Assembly (NCBI RefSeq): GCF_000269865.1
Contig: NZ_AKKV01000022.1
Location: 1 to 64,000 of the forward strand
Length of the DNA stretch: 64,000 nt
Reading direction: 5' to 3'
Source: Fictibacillus macauensis ZFHKF-1
Lineage (GTDB): Bacteria > Bacillota > Bacilli > Bacillales > Fictibacillaceae
Shown: piece after piece, positions 37,247 through 49,458 of the stretch
Numbering within the stretch: position 1 is the first letter of the stretch
Layout of the letters: every line of letters starts with the position of its first letter
Translations under genes and position numbers: made by a program
The notes under the pieces: generated by a model
The model's input: the letters and a program-made list of their open reading frames with translations, nothing else
Database searches by the model: none
What the model was told of the DNA's origin: nothing

Positions 37247-37762
37247 TTATTTTTGTAACTTTAAACTAACAATTAACTCATCTAAACTGTCCGAAAGATC
37301 TTCGAATGAACCTCGTTCAAAATCCTCCAATTCTATCTTTCCACTTACATTATCTAAAACAACTAACAAACCGTTCCCCTCTACACCTATTGGAGTCTTA
37401 TCAACCTTATTATGATTGTTTTTATACCCTTCTAAATTACTTTCGAAGGAGTCCAATTCAATATTTGGTAATACAGGTTCCAGCCTAATGTAATGATGAT
37501 CAATAAATCCATCTAAATCAGCAAACCAAAAAGAATTAAAATAATCATTAATCGAACTGTGCAGTTTAATTTCAAATCTTTCCTCAATCTTCGTTAAATC
37601 ATTTTTATTATTTTTTTCAATAGGTTTCCATGAAATTTCTTCTTCATCATCCATTTCACCCTGATAGATTAATGAATCAACTTCTTCGTTATAGGGCATT
37701 TTAAATAAAAAATCTAACCCTTTATCAAAATATTCTTTTCTTAAATTAAAATAGTTGCTCAT
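37247..37762 (-). CDS. Syd-like (SUKH superfamily) immunity protein
   Basis: A 171-residue acidic protein resembling SecY-interacting protein Syd and related SUKH immunity proteins: ISWKPIEKNNKNDLTKIEE, then LHSSINDYFNSFWF, a central VLPNIELDSFESNLEGY, PIGVEGNGLLVVLDN and a C-terminal SLDELI helix. It lies 29 bases after the LXG toxin stop on the same strand, the standard place for the cognate immunity gene; SUKH proteins often oppose nuclease toxins. ATG 37762 has AAGGA close upstream; earlier starts at 37774 or 37789 are possible. Confidence 0.75.
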   Translation of the reverse strand: MSNYFNLRKEYFDKGLDFLFKMPYNEEVDSLIYQGEMDDEEEISWKPIEKNNKNDLTKIEERFEIKLHSSINDYFNSFWFADLDGFIDHHYIRLEPVLPNIELDSFESNLEGYKNNHNKVDKTPIGVEGNGLLVVLDNVSGKIELEDFERGSFEDLSDSLDELIVSLKLQK

Positions 37763-37791
37763 AGCATCCTTCATTACCAAAATAATCACCC

Positions 37792-39816
37792 TTACTTTTC
37801 TAAGAATTTTTCTAATAGGTCAGCATATTTTTGATCATTTCCCCAAACTCCTGAGCTTTTCTCAGCATTATGAATCCCTCCTAAACCTGGATGTAGCTTT
37901 GAGGGAACAGCCACAGCTTGACCTCCACCACCAATGTGATGATGAATTAAAGTGTCATTATATAATTCTTTTAAATCATATTGGGGAAAATGTTTTCTAA
38001 ACTTTGTATTGTTTATAGGTGAGAATCCTAATTCTATTTTTTGTCTATTTGACTTACTAAATGCTTCTGGGTACTTCTTTAACATCTCTTTCCAATAAAA
38101 ATCTTTATCGCGTAACCAACCCTCTGCATTTGTATTTTTTTGCCCTTTACCAACATAGGGCATCTCAACAGTTAACCGTGGATCTGCAGTATATTTAGCC
38201 TCTAGCTTAACTAAATCAGCACCACGATATGTTCTAATAGGATCATTAATATCACCTATATTCTTAACCATTTCACCCGTACCTCTACCCCTGAAAAACA
38301 TTAATTGTCCTAAAGGATTATTCAATGTATTAAAGGGCAGAGATAGACCCTCAGGTGTTGTCACAATGTGTACTTTTGGTATTGATTTTGTTACTTTGGA
38401 GGTCGCATTAGAGGCGGCTTTAGCCTTACTAGCTAGACTTACAGCCCTACTACCACCAAGTACTTCTCCTCCGAATAAAAAGGTTGCTAGATTTAATGCA
38501 CCTTCTGTAAAAAAACGAGTTCGTGATTCAGCATCCCCGTTGACCACATCTCGTTCATAAGCTTGTTCTATGCTTCTTCGGACATGCTCTGCCCAATCAA
38601 TAACTTTGTTTCTAATTTTCTCAGGATGGTAAATTACATTCTCAATAAATCCCACTGTTTTTTTTGCCAAATAGCCCCGGTCTAGACCTAGTTCATATAG
38701 AACGTGGACTACTCCTTCTCCTAATCCAAGGGCACCTTCTCCAATGCCTTTAACAGTGTTTAATACACCATCTTTAAACCCCTTATTAATTTTATATCCT
38801 AATAGGAATAATTCAGCATAAAATACTGGGTTTTTTACGATAGCGGCATTTCCCTGCCATATAGTAACTGCTTTGTCTTTTGTATAGTCGACTACAGCAC
38901 TGGCTTTGTCCCAAATTGCGTGACCCCATCCTTTAACAGTGTCAAGCACGTCTTCTTCCGTGTCTTCATTGTTCATCTCAGGAAGCTCGGTCACCCATTC
39001 GTATTCAGTTATACCACCTTTGCGTGTAACTTTTACAATGGTTCCATCTGGGAACACTTGATAATCATTGCCGTTGAGGTGGAGTGTTTTTACAGGTTTA
39101 GTCGTACCTTTTTGAAAAAGTTCGCCTGTTAAGCGTCGATAAGCCCCTTCTTTGGCTAAAGATTCAGGTTTGAATCTGGTAAATAGGTCTTTATTCCCGG
39201 CGAGAGAACCCAGTACTTCATCGCTATTCTTATTATAAGCATTGCTCATTTTCTGTAGATAGTTTGTTAATGTAGTAAGCTCATGTTCAATCGTTTTTAG
39301 TGCTTTTTCGGACGTTTGATCAAATTCGGTTACATCGGTTAGCGTAGTTAAAATGGCTTGTTTCGCCTGGCTAATAGCATCAGAGATGTGTACTTCATTT
39401 AACTTCCTTACGTCCACGATATGGCTTACATTGCTCAGAGCATTGTTTACATTGTCTATTAATGAGTGGGCATCTAATTGCGAACGGCTGAGACCTTGAA
39501 GAAGATCATGTTGTAAAAAAGAAGTTCTAATATGACCTTGAGGATTGGTCTCTACGTGCTGTAAGGATTTCGTAATAGTAGTTAATGTTTTCTTATACGT
39601 AGTTAGTGTGTGATGCAAGTAAGTGAGAAAGGGGTCGTGCACGGTTTTAAAGTATGTTCGAATGCCATTTCCAGTTTGACCTTTCAACTCATTTTGTAAG
39701 CTAGTAAGATGTTTAATAGAGAGTTGAAGGGCTTTTAATTGCTCGTCAATGGGACTAATGGCTTGTTCAATGGCTTTGGTTCCTGCCTGAAATGACTGGA
39801 CGTCTACAACCTTCAT
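37792..39816 (-). CDS. LXG-domain polymorphic toxin with HNH/EndoVII-type nuclease tail
   Basis: A 674-residue type VII-secreted toxin. The N-terminal LXG domain (about 1-225; MKVVDVQSFQAGTKAIEQAI and long coiled helices) delivers it. A pretoxin region follows, with a hydrophobic patch near 440-470, and the C-terminal domain carries HHHIGGGGQAVAVPSKLHPG (HHH at 625-627) and GGIHN (H649), typical of HNH/endonuclease VII-fold toxins. Upstream genes encode two YwqI/YwqH-like helpers; downstream is a Syd-like immunity gene. AGGTGG precedes the ATG. The ESX secretion genes are not in this window. Confidence 0.88.
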   Translation of the reverse strand: MKVVDVQSFQAGTKAIEQAISPIDEQLKALQLSIKHLTSLQNELKGQTGNGIRTYFKTVHDPFLTYLHHTLTTYKKTLTTITKSLQHVETNPQGHIRTSFLQHDLLQGLSRSQLDAHSLIDNVNNALSNVSHIVDVRKLNEVHISDAISQAKQAILTTLTDVTEFDQTSEKALKTIEHELTTLTNYLQKMSNAYNKNSDEVLGSLAGNKDLFTRFKPESLAKEGAYRRLTGELFQKGTTKPVKTLHLNGNDYQVFPDGTIVKVTRKGGITEYEWVTELPEMNNEDTEEDVLDTVKGWGHAIWDKASAVVDYTKDKAVTIWQGNAAIVKNPVFYAELFLLGYKINKGFKDGVLNTVKGIGEGALGLGEGVVHVLYELGLDRGYLAKKTVGFIENVIYHPEKIRNKVIDWAEHVRRSIEQAYERDVVNGDAESRTRFFTEGALNLATFLFGGEVLGGSRAVSLASKAKAASNATSKVTKSIPKVHIVTTPEGLSLPFNTLNNPLGQLMFFRGRGTGEMVKNIGDINDPIRTYRGADLVKLEAKYTADPRLTVEMPYVGKGQKNTNAEGWLRDKDFYWKEMLKKYPEAFSKSNRQKIELGFSPINNTKFRKHFPQYDLKELYNDTLIHHHIGGGGQAVAVPSKLHPGLGGIHNAEKSSGVWGNDQKYADLLEKFLEK

Positions 39817-39833
39817 TTTACCACCTACCTGTG

Positions 39834-40112
39834 TTATTTCATAAGAAATTGTTCCCCCGCTTGTTGATCGACTTTTTTCATACGATCGACGGACTTTTTA
39901 GCCATATCTTGATTTTCGAGAATAAAGCTATGATAGTTTTCTAATAGTGTTTGTAGCTGTTTGCTTATTTTATTGATTTGTTCAACCGTAGCTAATGTAT
40001 TACCATGACCGATGGTATGAGGAATGGCGGTTTTTACCGATTCTGCTTTTTTACGCATGTCAGCTAATGCTTGCTCGACTGCTTGAAACTGAATTGCAAT
40101 TTCCATATTCAT
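39834..40112 (-). CDS. LXG-associated small helical protein, YwqI-like (DUF5344)
   Basis: A 92-residue helical-hairpin protein (QAVEQALADMRKKAESV; NKISKQLQTLLENYHSF; QQAGEQF near the end), matching YwqI/DUF5344 proteins encoded just before LXG toxins. Such helpers bind the LXG domain to form the export complex. ATG 40112 has AAGGAG 8 bases upstream; its stop is 17 bases from the toxin start. Confidence 0.8.
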   Translation of the reverse strand: MNMEIAIQFQAVEQALADMRKKAESVKTAIPHTIGHGNTLATVEQINKISKQLQTLLENYHSFILENQDMAKKSVDRMKKVDQQAGEQFLMK

Positions 40113-40132
40113 GAATACCACTCCTTATTTCT

Positions 40133-40483
40133 TTATTTCTTAAGTGCTTGTTGATGTTGAACAAGCTCAGTTTTTATTGTTTTTTCTAACTGAGAACTCG
40201 ATGTTTGTAACGCACTAATTTTGTTTTGAATTATTGTTATCGCTCCAGAGAGTTGTTTCATTAGTTCTTTGTAGCCGGTATAAAGGGTAGCACGTTTTTT
40301 ATCGAATTGATCGGCTTTACTCCCAGACCATTCGTTTTTGTGCAATTTAGGCTCAGTACACTTACTTTCACCTTGAGTGAAATGTTCTTGTAACGACTCT
40401 AATTTTTTTTGACAGCGTTGTAAGTCAAGAATATCTTCCTTATTCCTGCTTAACTGACTGTTTAAAGGAGAGAGATCAAGCAA
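40133..40483 (-). CDS. LXG-associated helical protein, YwqH-like (DUF5082)
   Basis: A 116-residue coiled-coil protein with a WSGSKA turn (near residue 53) in place of WXG, typical of YwqH/DUF5082 partners of LXG toxins. It starts with TTG (GGTGG upstream) and is the first gene of the helper-helper-toxin-immunity operon. Together with the YwqI-like protein it should target the toxin to the ESX/Yuk machinery. Confidence 0.78.
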   Translation of the reverse strand: MLDLSPLNSQLSRNKEDILDLQRCQKKLESLQEHFTQGESKCTEPKLHKNEWSGSKADQFDKKRATLYTGYKELMKQLSGAITIIQNKISALQTSSSQLEKTIKTELVQHQQALKK

Positions 40484-40732: not shown

Positions 40733-41037
40733 TGCAACGGTTTCATGTCATTGTGGGGAATAAGGAAGGAGCAATCCGCACAACATCTTCAAGGAGTTGT
40801 GCGGGTCTTAATGTTATGAAAATACGTTTATTTGCGGAGAAAATATATCAATGAGCGAGTATTTGTGCTTTTTGTCGTATTTATATTGTTAGGTGGCGAA
40901 TATGACGTTACAGCTGGAGAAAAAATGAATAGTAAATCTAGCAAAATGGCATTTACTGTGATGTATGCGACAGGGAAAAGTTATAAACTATTCTAAGGGT
41001 AGTGAATTATAAAGAAGTAGATTGCTCTCGTTTGCTT
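40733..41037 (+). pseudogene. Decayed copy (C) of the operon end plus secreted-protein gene
   Basis: Colinear with 32465-33288. It begins inside the last codons of the 4-oxalocrotonate decarboxylase gene (ACGGTTTCATGTCATTGTGG), continues through the terminator (CCGCACAAC/GTTGTGCGG), the gap and the start of the secreted-protein gene. It then skips most of that gene and resumes at AATTATAAAGAA and GATTGCTCTCGTTT near its 3' end and terminator. A 1-base deletion after ATGAG shifts the frame. This proves a segmental duplication, not a shared motif. Confidence 0.88.
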
Positions 41038-41247
41038 TATACGGTTTAGTTTTTTTTTGCTTTCCATTGCTCTATATGATTAGCTGAATAATACCATCTC
41101 TCAACTCAATAAATTTAAATAGATGATTCCAGAACAATACCGGAATCACCTTTTAACTGTTAAAACCAAATCAAGATTGCTATCTACTTTAAAATGTAGA
41201 AACAAAGGACTAAGTTAAAAAAACAATTAATATTTAACATTATCAAA
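41038..41247. other. Non-coding gap
   Basis: AT-rich sequence between copy C and the RiPP-locus terminator. No gene or structure seen. Confidence 0.35.
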
Positions 41248-41278
41248 GACACCTTCGTATTCAAGCTTCGAAGATGTC
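41248..41278 (-). terminator. Terminator of the candidate RiPP operon
   Basis: On the minus strand GACATCTTCG and CGAAGGTGTC pair (one G-U) around AAGCTTGAATA, followed by TTTG. It is 41 bases past the stop of the M50 protease gene. Confidence 0.65.
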
Positions 41279-41318
41279 CTTATGATTATAAAACATAAAT
41301 TAAGTATTCTTTAAATGT

Positions 41319-42539
41319 TTAATCTAATGAGATTGGTCTATTAGACACTCGGTTAGATTTCCAGGTTTTAATCCAAGAATAGATTAGTATACCAGTTGGA
41401 ATACTTGAAATAGCAATAAAAATTAATGCATCCCAAAATGCAATAGAGAGTATATTACTATGCAAAGCTTTCATTATTGCGATAGATAAAAATTTTAATA
41501 AAGCAGGTATAGACACTATAATAAATATACCTATAGCCCAAATTACACCTAATAAATAAAACCATACGTATTTTTGCATGATTTTTTTTTCGTATTGATC
41601 AATGTTTTGAAGTTCTATAGTTTGCTCTTTAGATATTCTTTTAGTTAACTTTCTTATATACAATCTTGTATTATGCAAAAGATTATTGCATTTAAAATAA
41701 GTAGTAAAAACATAATACATATCAGTCTCTAAATAAAACATAAATTGAAAAGCAATAGCTAGTACACAATGTAAATTTATTAATTTTATTATGTTTAATA
41801 ATACGATATTCATTTCTATACCTATTGTATTGAGTAAAAGAAATACTACTCCTATACCGAATAATGCGCCATCCCATGCCATACCTGCAAGTAAAGCTCT
41901 ATATCTTTTGTTATGTGGTAGAAGTACTATGTTAGACATATCAGTTTCCACTACTGGAAAAACAAGTCGGTGTCCTAAACCAATTCGACTGTTTATACCT
42001 AATGATTTAGCTGCCATTAAATGTGCAAATTCATGCTTAAATATTAAGATCCAACCTAGTAAAGTTGCAAAAATAATAGATGAGGAGATTGAATCAAATA
42101 CAAAAATATCTTGATATGTAGGAATAAAAGTAGTATTTGAAATACATATACACATACCTACCAATAAAAATAAGATATAAATAAAATAAGCAAAATTACT
42201 AAATAAGAGCCTTGAAACAGTAGGACTTAAATTTTTGAAGTGACTTTTATCCTCTACAACATCATTTATAATGACACCATCTACTTTATATACAAATTGT
42301 AAATCGTTTACTAAATTTTCTGCAAAATCTAAAACGTCGACTTCTATGCCACGTTCTTGCATGATTTTAGAAATGTCACTAGTTGTTAATTGTTGGTCAT
42401 ATAAATCTATTATTTCAATAGCTATATTCGGTAAGATTACAAAGTTACTTTCATCAGTTCTACCAATTAAATATTCTTCTGAATTCTCTTTACGTCTTTG
42501 AAGATTATGCATTGTAAGAAAGGATGATTCATTTACCAA
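41319..42539 (-). CDS. M50-family membrane zinc protease with N-terminal PqqD-like domain (RiPP maturation)
   Basis: A 406-residue protein. Residues 1-95 look like a PqqD/RiPP-recognition-type winged helix (YLIGRTDESNFVILPNIAIE; DLYDQQLTTSDISKIMQERG). The rest has about seven TM segments with the site-2-protease motif HEFAH at 169-173 and a WDG in the LDG/NPDG position (residues 216-218). Such enzymes cleave peptides in or at the membrane; here it is expected to trim or release the small modified peptide. TTG start with GAGGTGA upstream, 12 bases after the adenylating-enzyme stop. A terminator follows. Confidence 0.75.
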   Translation of the reverse strand: MVNESSFLTMHNLQRRKENSEEYLIGRTDESNFVILPNIAIEIIDLYDQQLTTSDISKIMQERGIEVDVLDFAENLVNDLQFVYKVDGVIINDVVEDKSHFKNLSPTVSRLLFSNFAYFIYILFLLVGMCICISNTTFIPTYQDIFVFDSISSSIIFATLLGWILIFKHEFAHLMAAKSLGINSRIGLGHRLVFPVVETDMSNIVLLPHNKRYRALLAGMAWDGALFGIGVVFLLLNTIGIEMNIVLLNIIKLINLHCVLAIAFQFMFYLETDMYYVFTTYFKCNNLLHNTRLYIRKLTKRISKEQTIELQNIDQYEKKIMQKYVWFYLLGVIWAIGIFIIVSIPALLKFLSIAIMKALHSNILSIAFWDALIFIAISSIPTGILIYSWIKTWKSNRVSNRPISLD

Positions 42540-42551
42540 GACAAGTCACCT

Positions 42552-43718
42552 CTATCGTTTTACTACGCCTTTATTGAAATCATAATATTGGTCAAATAAC
42601 TCAAATAGAGTTTCATTTTGAGGTTTATCACCACAGGTTGGACAGGAAACTTCTTTATCCCATTTGGTTAGTTCAGTTAACTCAAAATTCATAAAATCTA
42701 TCATTAATAATTTCCCGGAAGATTCAGGTGCTTGTATATCACTTAATAGCTTGAAAATTTCAGAACAGATTATACCAGTAATAATCATAATATTTGGAGA
42801 AGTGGCCATGTTAGAGGGAATAAAATTCAATTCTAGAAAATTTTTTATGATTGTATAGTAATTCTCTATTTCTCTTATATTTTTTGTGTACATACAATCT
42901 ATACAACCTGTAATATTAGGTATTATAGTTTGAAACTGTCCTAAATGTATGTTTATTCCTCCTGAAATAAAAGGTATATTTTTATTTACACATACCTCAT
43001 TAATCCATCTTGGAAGTAATAAGTATGGTTGGTCTGCAGCTAAAACTACTAAATCTGTATTTTCTATACATGAATCAGCAGTGTGTAAACTGTCAATTTC
43101 CATATTACAAGTTTCAATAATCATATCTGAATAATATTTATCCATAAATTCTTTAGCGACATCAATTTTGAATCTCCCAATATCATTCTCTTTAAATAAC
43201 ATTTGTCGATTAAAATTACTTAAACTTACGGTATCGAAATCTATAATTTTAACATTTTTTATACCAAGTCCTGCAAGATTAAATAGAATACTACATCCAA
43301 AAGCCCCCATGCCAATGATTGTAATTCTTTTTTTAGAAAGAATATCTTGGTATTTACATGGATCTTCGTTTGGAGCGGTGAAGTGTGAAAAATAATTAAT
43401 ATTACCTTTAAATCTTTCTTTTTCTTTAATAGATAGAGAGTGTTGAGATGGGTCAGTATGCAATAAAAAACCAAGATCTTTTAATGATAAAATGGCTTCA
43501 TTAACTTCTTCTAGAGTAATACACGGAAAATCTTGATTCAGGAGATGAAAAATTGTTTTTGCATTATGGGAACCATCTAGTAAAGTTATAAGACGATAGA
43601 TAGAACCAGTAGGATCTTCTATATCGTATACTTTATCTGCAGTTACACCCAATCTAAGATGTCCAGAGAGTAAGTGGTGGAAAGGATACAATGGATTAAA
43701 TTTAGGTCTACTGTACAC
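42552..43718 (-). CDS. E1/ThiF-like adenylating enzyme with N-terminal peptide-binding domain (RiPP synthetase)
   Basis: A 388-residue enzyme. Residues 1-95 resemble the leader-binding clamp of TOMM/MccB-type proteins (ITLLDGSHNAKTIFHLLNQD; ILSLKDLGFLL). Residues 125-370 form an E1-like nucleotide domain: GMGAFG at 136-141, DFDTVSLSNFNRQMLF from residue 160, and two zinc CxxC pairs (CIDC and CPTC). The fold activates a carboxylate with ATP, as MccB and ThiF do. It follows two tiny Cys-containing peptide genes. GTG start with AAGGGGG upstream. The product chemistry is unknown. Confidence 0.8.
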   Translation of the reverse strand: MYSRPKFNPLYPFHHLLSGHLRLGVTADKVYDIEDPTGSIYRLITLLDGSHNAKTIFHLLNQDFPCITLEEVNEAILSLKDLGFLLHTDPSQHSLSIKEKERFKGNINYFSHFTAPNEDPCKYQDILSKKRITIIGMGAFGCSILFNLAGLGIKNVKIIDFDTVSLSNFNRQMLFKENDIGRFKIDVAKEFMDKYYSDMIIETCNMEIDSLHTADSCIENTDLVVLAADQPYLLLPRWINEVCVNKNIPFISGGINIHLGQFQTIIPNITGCIDCMYTKNIREIENYYTIIKNFLELNFIPSNMATSPNIMIITGIICSEIFKLLSDIQAPESSGKLLMIDFMNFELTELTKWDKEVSCPTCGDKPQNETLFELFDQYYDFNKGVVKR

Positions 43719-43740
43719 ATTTAAACCCCCTTATGGAATG

Positions 43741-43776
43741 AAAGGAATATTGTGGGAAACCCTACAATATTCCTTT
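43741..43776 (-). promoter_or_regulatory. Long stem-loop between precursor genes and modification genes
   Basis: AAAGGAATATTGTGGG and CCCTACAATATTCCTTT pair almost perfectly over 16 bp. On the minus (coding) strand no T run follows, so it should act as a partial terminator or processing/stability element that keeps precursor mRNA more abundant than enzyme mRNA. Confidence 0.65.
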
Positions 43777-43782
43777 TTATAA

Positions 43783-43863
43783 TTAGCAACTACCTAAGCC
43801 AGGGCATAATTCAGCGTCCATAGTAGCTTTTACCTTTTCAACCTTTTTTGCGACGATTTTCAT
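43783..43863 (-). CDS. RiPP precursor peptide A (26 aa)
   Basis: Read on the minus strand: GGGAGG, 7-base spacer, ATG, then 26 codons encoding a basic leader (KIVAKKVEKVKATMDAE) and the C-terminal core LCPGLGSC, then TAA. It is too short for usual gene calling but has a perfect ribosome site and a near-identical neighbour. The two copies differ at six synonymous third positions and at no shared amino acid. The two Cys and Gly/Pro-rich end are the likely modification site. Confidence 0.82.
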   Translation of the reverse strand: MKIVAKKVEKVKATMDAELCPGLGSC

Positions 43864-43896
43864 AGTTACACCTCCCAGTGTTTTTTTTATTAGGGC

Positions 43897-43980
43897 TTAG
43901 CAACTACCTAAGCCAGGGCATAACTCAGCATCCATAGTAGCTTTCACTTTTTCAACTTTTTTTGCGACAATTTTCAACAT
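43897..43980 (-). CDS. RiPP precursor peptide B (27 aa)
   Basis: Minus strand: AAAGGGGGTGAAT then ATG TTG, followed by the same 25 residues as peptide A, ending LCPGLGSC and TAA. It is the first gene of the locus, 33 bases before peptide A. Only the extra Leu at position 2 distinguishes the two products. A second AAAGGAGG lies about 50 bases upstream without an ordinary start codon. Confidence 0.82.
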   Translation of the reverse strand: MLKIVAKKVEKVKATMDAELCPGLGSC

Positions 43981-44052
43981 ATTCACCCCCTTTAATATAA
44001 TTCTATTTATTCTGTATTTTCTGTTAATAACCTCCTTTGGTTTGTGTTTTTT

Positions 44053-44083
44053 TACTAAAAAATACATAAATGGTACTAAAAAA
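44053..44083. promoter_or_regulatory. 21-bp-spaced direct repeats upstream of the RiPP precursors
   Basis: TACTAAAAAA occurs at 44053-44062 and again at 44074-44083, a period of exactly two helical turns. Direct repeats with this spacing are typical binding sites of LytTR-type response regulators controlling bacteriocin genes (PlnC/AgrA class). They lie about 75-100 bases upstream of precursor B. No such regulator gene is in the window. Confidence 0.45.
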
Positions 44084-44183
44084 CTAGAATAAGATTATAG
44101 ATGTCGTGAAGCAAGCGAGGGTATGTTTCAATAATTATGTGAAGCAGTCACTTCGGGATGAGTACCTGTGACATTTAAATTAG

Positions 44184-44351
44184 ATGGCCGTCTTTTTGCT
44201 AGTGGGCGCGTTGCTAGTATTTCCGTCACAACGAGGCTGTATAATACCTATTAAACTGCTATATGGCATGTTTATTGCCGCATATAGTTATATGATTATT
44301 CGTTTTATGGAAGAAACAAAAGCAGGTCAGAAAGAATCATTCCACTCATAA
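44184..44351 (+). CDS. Doubtful small membrane protein or gene remnant
   Basis: A 55-codon frame (MAVFLLVGALLVFPSQRG, then a second hydrophobic stretch around YGMFIAAYSYMIIRF, ending in a charged tail). There is no ribosome site, and a TAG directly precedes the ATG, so it may be the remnant of a larger membrane-protein gene. It occupies most of the 470-bp gap between the RiPP precursors and the MaoC-like gene. Confidence 0.25.
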   Translation: MAVFLLVGALLVFPSQRGCIIPIKLLYGMFIAAYSYMIIRFMEETKAGQKESFHS

Positions 44352-44450
44352 GCTATAGCAACGGCTGCTGTAAAAAAGAGAAAAGGAATATGCCACTTTT
44401 TGCCGAAATTTGTATAAGAGACAAAGAAATAGTGTGAAGGGGAATGTGTG

Positions 44451-44831
44451 ATGCAAAAAGGTGATGTTTTTTCGTATTCTCGATCTTTTACAGTAGAAGA
44501 AGTGCTTCATTTCGGCGAATTATCTGGCGATCAAGGGCGCCATCATGTGGAGCTAGACGACAAAGGACGCTTGATGGTACAAGGCTTATTAACGGCAAGT
44601 TTAGGAACGAAAATTGGCGGTGATATGCACTATATCGCACGCCAAATGAATAGTGAATTTGTGCGTCCTGTCTTTACGGGCGATGTGATTACATGTGAGG
44701 TAACATTGATGAATGTCGAGCCGAGCGACGGCTATGTGAAAGTGAGCATTGAATCGGTTACGCGCAATCAACAGGGTAAAGAAGTGTTGCTGGCAACGAG
44801 TCATGGCATTATTCGAAAGGATGAGGCCTAG
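44451..44831 (+). CDS. MaoC-like (hot-dog fold) dehydratase family protein
   Basis: A 126-residue hot-dog protein with FTVEEVLHFGELSGDQGRHH (the acyl-CoA hydratase-like H-x-D-x region altered to DQGRHH) and ARQMNSEFVRPVFTGDVITC (the typical central helix and strand). Members hydrate enoyl-CoA or act as thioester-binding proteins. ATG 44451 has AAGGGG 8 bases upstream. It lies 1 base from the next gene, so the two are co-transcribed. Confidence 0.7.
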   Translation: MQKGDVFSYSRSFTVEEVLHFGELSGDQGRHHVELDDKGRLMVQGLLTASLGTKIGGDMHYIARQMNSEFVRPVFTGDVITCEVTLMNVEPSDGYVKVSIESVTRNQQGKEVLLATSHGIIRKDEA

Positions 44832-49025: not shown

Positions 49026-49200
49026 ATTGCACGCGGGGGCGCTTAGTTCGCGCGCAAGGGAACCCGATTCGCGCGCAGAGGCACTTGGTTCGCGCGCCGG
49101 AGCATCCGATTCGCGCGCAGGGACGCTCGTTTCGCGCGCAAACAAGTCAAATCCTCTTTCCGAGCATGTGCAAGGGACCAAAAAGAGAGAAAATCAAGAG
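49026..49200 (+). repeat. 21-bp TTCGCGCGCA tandem array, block 1
   Basis: Units start at 49047, 49068, 49089, 49110 and 49131 (exactly 21 bp apart), with a degenerate one at 49026. Each begins TTCGCGCG followed by an 11-12-base variable part. The array ends in a conserved tail (AACAAGTCAAATCC; CATGTGCAAGGGACC; AAAAAGAGAG) that recurs after block 2. Open frames on both strands are a by-product of the 21-bp (7-codon) period, not genes. Confidence 0.88.
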
Positions 49201-49271
49201 CTAAGCTTGTAAATGCACCCAAAAACGAGTGAAAAAGCATGTAAGCCATGTGATGATCTCGAAAAGATCGA

Positions 49272-49458
49272 TTCGCGCGCAGGGACCCTCAAATCGCGCG
49301 CAGGGATGCTCGGTTCGCGCGCAGAGACCCTCAAATCGCGCGCAGGAGCACTTGTTTCGCGCGCAGGGACCTTTGATTCGCGCGCAGGAGCACTCAATTC
49401 ACGCGCAAACAAGTCAAATCCTCTCTCCGACCATGTGCAAGGGACCAAAAAGAGAGCA
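49272..49458 (+). repeat. 21-bp TTCGCGCGCA tandem array, block 2
   Basis: Seven units at 49272, 49293, 49314, 49335, 49356, 49377 and 49398, phase perfect, with cores TTCGCGCGCA or ATCGCGCGCA. It ends with the same tail as block 1 (CATGTGCAAGGGACC then AAAAAGAGAG). The whole block plus tail is thus a duplicated module. The core contains the palindrome CGCGCG. Confidence 0.88.

Follow-up and report, generated by a model that had tools for sequence, protein, structure and literature searches.

Operon organization, precursors, and enzymes

The DNA examined was a 64,000-nucleotide stretch (the window) of Fictibacillus macauensis ZFHKF-1, positions 1 to 64,000 of contig NZ_AKKV01000022.1. Its minus strand carries a four-gene operon that runs from 43980 to 41319 and consists of two short peptide genes, then a gene for a ThiF/E1-like enzyme, then one for an M50 protease. 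All are co-directional, and the intergenic gap between the two enzyme genes is 12 bases. As judged from sequence comparison, a system of the type that makes ribosomally synthesized and post-translationally modified peptides (RiPPs), built from precursor, E1-like enzyme, and M50 protease, is supported because the peptide leader is conserved and the core variable, precursors occur in tandem copies, the enzymes are paired, and catalytic residues are kept. The features are as follows.

43897..43980, minus strand: precursor gene A, 27 amino acids, MLKIVAKKVEKVKATMDAELCPGLGSC; called from its reading frame, its ribosome site GGGGGTGA, and the leader-type precursors at related loci
43783..43863, minus strand: precursor gene B, 26 amino acids, MKIVAKKVEKVKATMDAELCPGLGSC; ribosome site GGGAGGTG; predicted leader at residues 1-14 and predicted core at residues 15-26
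43741..43776, minus strand: 13-bp inverted-repeat hairpin between the precursors and the enzyme genes, z = -3.9; putative partial terminator/attenuator or RNA stabilizer
42552..43718, minus strand: ThiF/E1-like adenylyltransferase, 388 amino acids; N-terminal clamp or RiPP recognition element (RRE) at ~1-95; R171, K184, and D229; zinc-type C272, C275, C359, and C362
41319..42539, minus strand: M50 intramembrane metalloprotease, 406 amino acids, TTG start; PqqD-like N-terminal domain (at family level); HExxH at 169-173; Asp273

Two tiny genes with good ribosome sites had been predicted to encode the same peptide, and this was confirmed from the reading frames: precursor A equals precursor B plus one extra Leu. 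Codon comparison likewise bore out the predicted pattern of third-position differences that never change an amino acid. Over their shared codons the two genes differ six times, 6/6 in the third position and 6/6 synonymously; for six random single changes, the chance of an all-synonymous outcome is ~8e-5. Because the differences are all synonymous, the window peptide is under selection. Its leader, about residues 1-14, is basic (MKIVAKKVEKVKAT), and its predicted core is MDAELCPGLGSC.

The ThiF-like enzyme matched PF00899 with E=4.7e-49. Its best solved relatives by sequence were MccB (3.3e-24) and PaaA (6.9e-24), closely followed by the NEDD8 E1 (9.2e-23), with MoeB (1.4e-18) and ThiF (2.5e-14) more remote. 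In an alignment of enzymes from 34 of 47 loci plus the window, from which near-duplicates and the short L100 sequence were left out, R171, Q172, K184, D229, and the four cysteines were invariant in all 35 non-redundant sequences. A profile built from 16 N-termini matched PaaA with E=3.8e-8, supporting the leader-clamp-like N-terminus claimed in the original prediction.

The same enzyme also matched the E1 part of E1-E2 models in PADLOC (best E=2.4e-17), as would be expected if the pair were a ubiquitin-like conjugation or anti-phage system with an E1 of the type found in cyclic-oligonucleotide-based anti-phage signaling systems (CBASS) or Bil. However, the alignment was confined to the generic E1 domain (in the best model, 164 of the 593 profile positions), and neither the operon genes nor the seven scanned neighbors encode an E2, a ubiquitin-like protein, a JAB protein, or a CD-NTase. 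The best solved relatives, MccB and PaaA, also argue against this explanation, albeit with the NEDD8 E1 close behind, and we regard a conjugation or defense role as exceedingly unlikely.

The Pfam match of the M50 protein lay under the curated cut-off (E=0.0039, 17 versus 27.2 bits). H169, E170, H173, and D273 were nevertheless invariant in 44/44 aligned proteins (43 of 58 plus the window protein, non-redundant), and hydrophobic stretches flank the motif in the window protease. No solved relative was found by sequence search. A PqqD-like N-terminus had been claimed for this protease. At the family level the claim stood: PF05402 was matched by 12 of 17 M50 N-termini at E<=1 (best 6.3e-6). The window protein itself gave no match, and a profile of the 17 N-termini matched no solved structure (best E=0.14). 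The NCBI model for the daptide intramembrane protease, NF041824, was matched by three of six M50 relatives (best 2.9e-11) and not by the window protease. The N-termini of the ThiF-like and M50 families aligned with each other at 93% probability over 46 columns.

Related loci

Relatives of the ThiF-like enzyme were sought in 397 genomes from the order at E<=1e-25, which gave 22 matches in 21 genomes, the window's own included. An M50 relative accompanied 17 of the 21 other ThiF genes; in 13 it was the next gene downstream on the ThiF strand, in three another gene (apparently split in L050) separated the two, and in one it was divergent. At the four loci without M50 (L034-L036 and L040), a transporter-type or ABC-type gene was seen by eye downstream. 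Inspection by eye likewise revealed a leader-type short frame near 20 of the 21 ThiF relatives in this order-wide sample; it was absent at L051 and lay on the divergent strand at L037. The expectation that ThiF-M50 pairs beside short frames would be found in other genomes was thus realized, and the frames proved to be conserved beside homologous enzymes.

The reciprocal search with the M50 protein covered 398 genomes from the class at E<=1e-20 and matched 35 of them. Its 47 non-window matches comprised 39 in 38 examined regions, two that were the loci L038 and L039, and six outside the examined set. ThiF was present in 23 of the 38 M50-seeded regions, with M50 downstream on the same strand in 22 and upstream in L108; a recognized precursor was present in 17 of the 23.

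L032, the nearest relative, has a ThiF 55% and an M50 about 58% identical to those of the window. Its precursor MKIVAKKVEKVKATRDMELCMGSPVC shares its first 14 residues with the window precursor and departs from it at 6 of 12 core positions. The C-x5-C spacing is kept in its core motif CMGSPVC, in which 4 of the 5 intervening residues differ from the window, and both cores contain ELC. Further precursors were VKIQVKKVEKVRTTMDQVNV in L033, LKIQAKRVEQVRTTAECVAC and MKIQARKVEQVKTTAICVDC in L084, MKIQAKKVESVRTTLLNAT in L096, and MKIKAKKVESVRTTVFTSNV in L100; L085 carries eight tandem copies of the MKIQAKKVEMVRTTAAAGGTSV type, and L042 and L045 carry five copies each. Throughout, leaders were conserved and tails variable (CPGLGSC, CMGSPVC, CVAC, CVDC, AVAA, GGTSV, and VIPYGG). 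A C-terminal Cys is common to the four distinct cores with two cysteines, namely those of the window, L032, and the two in L084. Precursor MKIQAKKVESVRTTAVAA was found in 10 regions whose ThiF is 40-43% identical to that of the window and which keep the same enzyme pair; its only acids are the leader residue Glu9 and the C-terminus, so that the C-terminus is the only acid outside the leader. Variable codons were synonymous in 4/4 cases for the AVAA group (10 regions, only 2 distinct sequences), 6/6 for CHYR (2 sequences), 1/1 for NHHA, and 14/16 for RPGT (8 distinct sequences).

A precursor motif, composed after viewing examples, was present in 43 of 63 regions (the window counted), two of these matches being spurious (L051 and L108). 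Upstream of ThiF/M50 the motif picked out 72 frames over 79,919 bp; the remainder of these loci yielded 31 over 1.39 million strand-bases, making the upstream density ~40x higher.

The strong hairpin behind the precursors had not been part of the original prediction. With L051 and L108 left out, 36 of the 41 loci had a 90-base stretch past the last precursor that folded better than shuffled sequences (z below -2). Control stretches did so in 0/41 cases when taken within the downstream gene (ThiF, or M50 at loci lacking ThiF) and in 6/41 when taken before the precursor. Across loci the hairpin keeps its position but not its sequence. In peptide operons such hairpins commonly serve partial termination ahead of the enzyme genes, and here the hairpin would allow more precursor than enzyme to be made. 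A hairpin at this place would also fit short frames that are attenuator leader peptides regulating ThiF-M50 rather than precursors of a product. Against this stand the up to eight tandem copies, a basic N-terminus conserved as amino acids across families next to a variable C-terminus, and the clamp domain of the adjacent enzyme; attenuation as the sole role of the frames is therefore considered very unlikely.

On actinomycete plasmids (Nocardia, two Streptomyces, and Actinacidiphila), an M50 relative directly followed ThiF in 4/4 loci opened; near other opened plasmid relatives of ThiF, major facilitator superfamily (MFS) or ATP-binding cassette (ABC) transporter genes or other genes replaced M50. 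Two of the four loci had candidate precursors with Bacillota-like ends, RRLDKKETTGLPCSGNGAS and RRLERVETTNSPCANAS, a similarity spotted post hoc. The candidates upstream of the ThiF-M50 pairs on the L152 (Nocardia) and L155 (Actinacidiphila) plasmids end in KKETTGLPCSGNGAS and ERVETTNSPCANAS.

ThiF and M50 distances were correlated (r=0.92 over 31 loci, reached in 0 of 2000 permutations), with shared host history uncontrolled. The window ThiF fell into a group of 9 rows (100/99 support) with L032 and ThiFs from different families within the class, apart from the ThiFs of its own family (L006-L009); thus, the pair appears to travel together. Distribution was patchy, at 1 of 18 genomes for the L032 family, 1 of 19 for the L033 family, and 16 of 39 for a further family. 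Among 34 genomes of the window's own family, four besides this one carry a distantly related M50 (27-31% identity). A scan of genome contigs with the window ThiF gave 12 pattern matches and no relative, and a three-sequence M50 profile gave one match, the L033 locus of Bacillus sp. EAC. Neither a scan of viral contigs with ThiF nor one of phage records with the M50 protein gave a match.

Proposed pathway and relation to described systems

On balance, we favor the view that the locus is a minimal RiPP operon in which the ThiF-like enzyme adenylates the precursor C-terminus, Cys20 captures it, and M50 releases the product. The basic leader MKIVAKKVEKVKAT would be bound by the clamp or RRE of the ThiF-like enzyme, which would use ATP to adenylate the C-terminal carboxylate. 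The activated C-terminus would then be captured by a side chain, most likely that of Cys20, and a thiolactone spanning the seven residues C-P-G-L-G-S-C would result. M50, through its own PqqD-like domain, would bind the same leader in the membrane and cut near the conserved Thr14, which is suggested as the cut site because conservation within the close clade ends there. A modified tail of roughly 12 residues would then leave the cell. The adenylation site, the nucleophile, the cut site, export, and the role of the product (signal or antibiotic) are all predictions.

The choice of the C-terminus as the likely adenylation site follows from MKIQAKKVESVRTTAVAA, which has no acid outside the leader except the C-terminus, and is extended to the window by homology. 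The original prediction had left room for an internal acid as the activated carboxylate. This option is disfavored, since the only non-leader carboxylate of the MKIQAKKVESVRTTAVAA relatives is the C-terminus and these relatives keep the enzyme pair. As to the nucleophile, the C-x5-C spacing shared with L032 was counted in favor of the thiolactone.

Several observations weigh against the pathway that we favor. The cores of most relatives (AVAA, GGTSV, VIPYGG, NHHA, and RPGT) have no cysteine, which means that thiolactone formation cannot be common to the whole family. A thiolactone from Cys20 to the C-terminus requires only Cys20 and leaves the shared C-terminal Cys unexplained, for which a disulfide or a Glu-to-terminal-Cys thiolactone is the better explanation. 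No recognized precursor was present in six of the 23 ThiF-holding M50-seeded regions (L097-L099, L103, L108, and L110; the L103 contig begins 100 bases before ThiF), and an internal stop interrupts 2 of 17 ThiF matches of one family. The absence of ThiF from 15 of the 38 M50-seeded regions shows the M50 family to be independent of ThiF. Structure models from two-sequence alignments, with predicted local distance difference test (pLDDT) scores of 43.6 and 48.7, were too poor for use.

ThiF-like enzymes of RiPP pathways activate a carboxylate by adenylation, and the nucleophile that attacks next differs from case to case (PMC12150305). Two other bonds were considered. In the first, the C-terminus is captured by an external group (ammonia, an amine, or a nucleotide) or by a backbone amide, giving an amide, imide, or nucleotide conjugate, and the cysteines form only a disulfide. 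Such capture fits all cores, those of the AVAA type included. MccB yields a nucleotide conjugate, and EnfB is reported in excerpts of PMC12250964 to form a C-terminal macrocyclic imide or amide, for which PMC12150305 considers more NMR to be needed. The operon, however, has no nucleotide-tailoring or amine-supplying gene, and the N-P bond of MccB sits at a C-terminal Asn (PMC12150305) that is missing here. We consider capture of this kind rather doubtful.

In the second, which resembles the reaction of GrcB, the side chain of Glu18 would be activated and joined to the thiol of Cys26 in a thiolactone of reverse orientation. GrcB is a ThiF-like enzyme with an RRE that forms a thiolactone from Glu35 to Cys39, according to excerpts of PMC12250964. 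The C-terminal Cys of all four two-Cys cores and the ELC of the window and L032 agree with this bond, and core AECVAC of L084 has the i,i+4 Glu-Cys spacing. Yet the window Glu lies eight rather than four residues before the Cys, Glu is missing from the other L084 core (AICVDC), and AVAA-type relatives, with ThiF 40-43% identical, have neither an acid nor a Cys in the core. The radical S-adenosylmethionine (SAM) genes of grc are also absent from the operon, and the GrcB-like bond is judged unlikely.

Both halves of the system have precedents. ThiF-like adenylyltransferase (TLAT) RiPPs have been described (PMC12150305 and excerpts of PMC12250964), and the locus has the sequence features by which they are recognized: intact ATP-binding residues, an N-terminal RRE or clamp, and an adjacent short precursor with conserved leader and variable core. 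A further trait of the group, activation of a precursor carboxylate at the cost of ATP, is predicted for the locus. With microcin C, pantocin A, GRC, enterofaecin, and Ind it shares the ThiF/E1 domain with N-terminal clamp or RRE, the adjacent leader-core precursor, and the Arg/Lys/Asp of the ATP site. It differs by an M50 partner in place of an exporter, M16 protease, or radical SAM enzymes, and by a basic KKVEKV leader without the C-terminal Asn, WWIVI, or NWYFI named in PMC12150305 and in excerpts of PMC12250964. Unlike that of microcin C, the window precursor ends in Cys rather than Asn, and its operon has no exporter gene. GRC shares the C-terminal Cys but differs in the i,i+4 position of the Glu, which in the window is eight residues before the Cys, and in its radical SAM enzymes, none of which was found among the four operon genes or the seven scanned neighbors. 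Enterofaecin and Ind have their own WWIVI or NWYFI ends, transporters, and M16 (Ind), whereas the window has core MDAELCPGLGSC and M50.

For the protease, excerpts of PMC10036551 describe RRE-fused intramembrane site-2 proteases in daptide clusters, in which MpaP removes the leaders with RRE assistance. A fusion of an RRE/PqqD-like domain to an M50-type protease would be shared with MpaP (supported here at family level, with no match for the window protease), and the C-terminal RiPP modification shown for daptides is predicted for the present system. MpaD/MpaM-type enzymes, ELExMEAP, and the invariant C-terminal Thr given in those excerpts are not found here, where there is a ThiF-like enzyme and a Cys end instead. 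According to excerpts of PMC10885120, M50 proteases trim modified C-terminal residues from pearlin scaffolds and release epipeptides, and EpeP is thought to both cleave and export. Pearlin TglG/TmoG and epipeptide EpeP thus share with our proposal a membrane M50 through which a modified peptide end or product is set free; the modifying enzymes and precursors in those excerpts are different. The operon studied here would accordingly appear, as far as sequence relationships indicate, to combine a TLAT RiPP pathway with an RRE-M50 protease resembling that of daptides.

If the reading with the Cys20 thiolactone is right, Agr-type autoinducing peptides would share the thiolactone between a Cys side chain and the C-terminus. 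AgrB forms the ring by proteolysis, in contrast to the ATP-using E1 enzyme proposed here. Thiolactone rings and AgrD/AgrB are mentioned in excerpts of PMC12250964.

The original prediction was unaware of any RiPP class made up of exactly these components. For the pair this held among the literature matches listed (titles and abstracts, without supplements), although the unannotated network clusters of PMC12150305 (Figure S1) may include it; each half on its own had already been described. Among the matches listed, only PMC12643537 combines ThiF, M50, and a biosynthetic gene cluster, and the portion of it considered is unrelated by content. Within that scope, the pairing of ThiF and M50 with these precursors would be new. 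We tentatively raise the possibility, itself less than probable, of a new RiPP class spanning Bacillota and Actinomycetota, in which a clamp-E1 enzyme activates the C-terminus of very short precursors and an RRE-M50 protease does both the cutting and the release, no transporter being involved; in the window this would give a seven-residue thiolactone built with ATP and independent of Agr, probably a signal.

Nearly every described case of a ThiF-like RiPP enzyme makes a different bond (PMC12150305), and the present branch is sizeable. Its parts are unusually small, with predicted cores down to four residues (AVAA), two enzymes, and no transporter in the operon. The system predicts concrete products and masses, offers a simple case for how an E1 enzyme selects its nucleophile, and bears on whether M50 proteases both release and export RiPPs. 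For core MDAELCPGLGSC freed at Thr14, the calculated [M+H]+ is 1195.479 without modification, 1177.469 for a thiolactone, lactone, or imide (loss of water), 1193.464 for a disulfide, 1194.495 for an amide, and 1524.532 for an AMP conjugate.

Genomic setting and further M50 loci

The locus was probably acquired. Its GC content is 29.3%, compared with 42.3% for the window, and a value this low was reached by 6 of 307 sliding windows, a count that takes in those lying over the locus. M50 of this kind is present as a single copy in the genome. An empty site in the same genus was not identifiable, the flanking genes being too divergent and non-syntenic in the two genomes compared. Promoter-like and terminator-like sites at the locus were at chance level. 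The terminator that had been placed after M50 turned out to be weak, with one terminator-like site at 41151-41121 (mean of 1.1 in shuffled sequences). Rfam families gave no match across 41000-44500.

Leader style is similar at M50 loci with and without ThiF. A wider group may thus be united by M50 rather than by ThiF, and the similarity suggests a system of swappable modules. At L101, L102, L104-L107, L109, and L112, CWWC-type peptides of 19-23 residues, e.g. MKIRKLKKVKVTCWWCILFPKG, lie directly upstream of a ThiF-less M50. A gene for an HD-GYP-like membrane protein precedes the peptide at these eight loci (by eye; three of the eight proteins read), which may represent a second peptide-protease system. 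At L113-L118 and L121, M50 is followed by a TPR-like protein of ~700-750 residues (by eye; two of seven read), and a peptide of the MKKxxVKKTEAVKLT type lies upstream in 6 of these 7 loci.

Two groups of loci with ThiF had additional genes. A separate conserved 43-residue peptide, VKKLTTVVAAILLTLGF..., precedes the tandem PYGG-type precursors at L042, L044, and L045. At L048-L050, ThiF with triplicate RPGT-type precursors lies between two genes for ABC substrate-binding proteins, followed by M50 and MFS genes; the substrate-binding proteins perhaps serve in uptake or sensing of the product.

Beside the RiPP operon, window positions 37247-40483 hold a competition locus with an LXG toxin ending in an HNH nuclease (Tox-HNH-HHH), DUF5344 and YwqH-like partner genes, and a likely Syd/SUKH-2 immunity gene. 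Tandem arrays of 21/42-base units around TTCGCGCGCA were found at 49038-49141 and 49268-49407.

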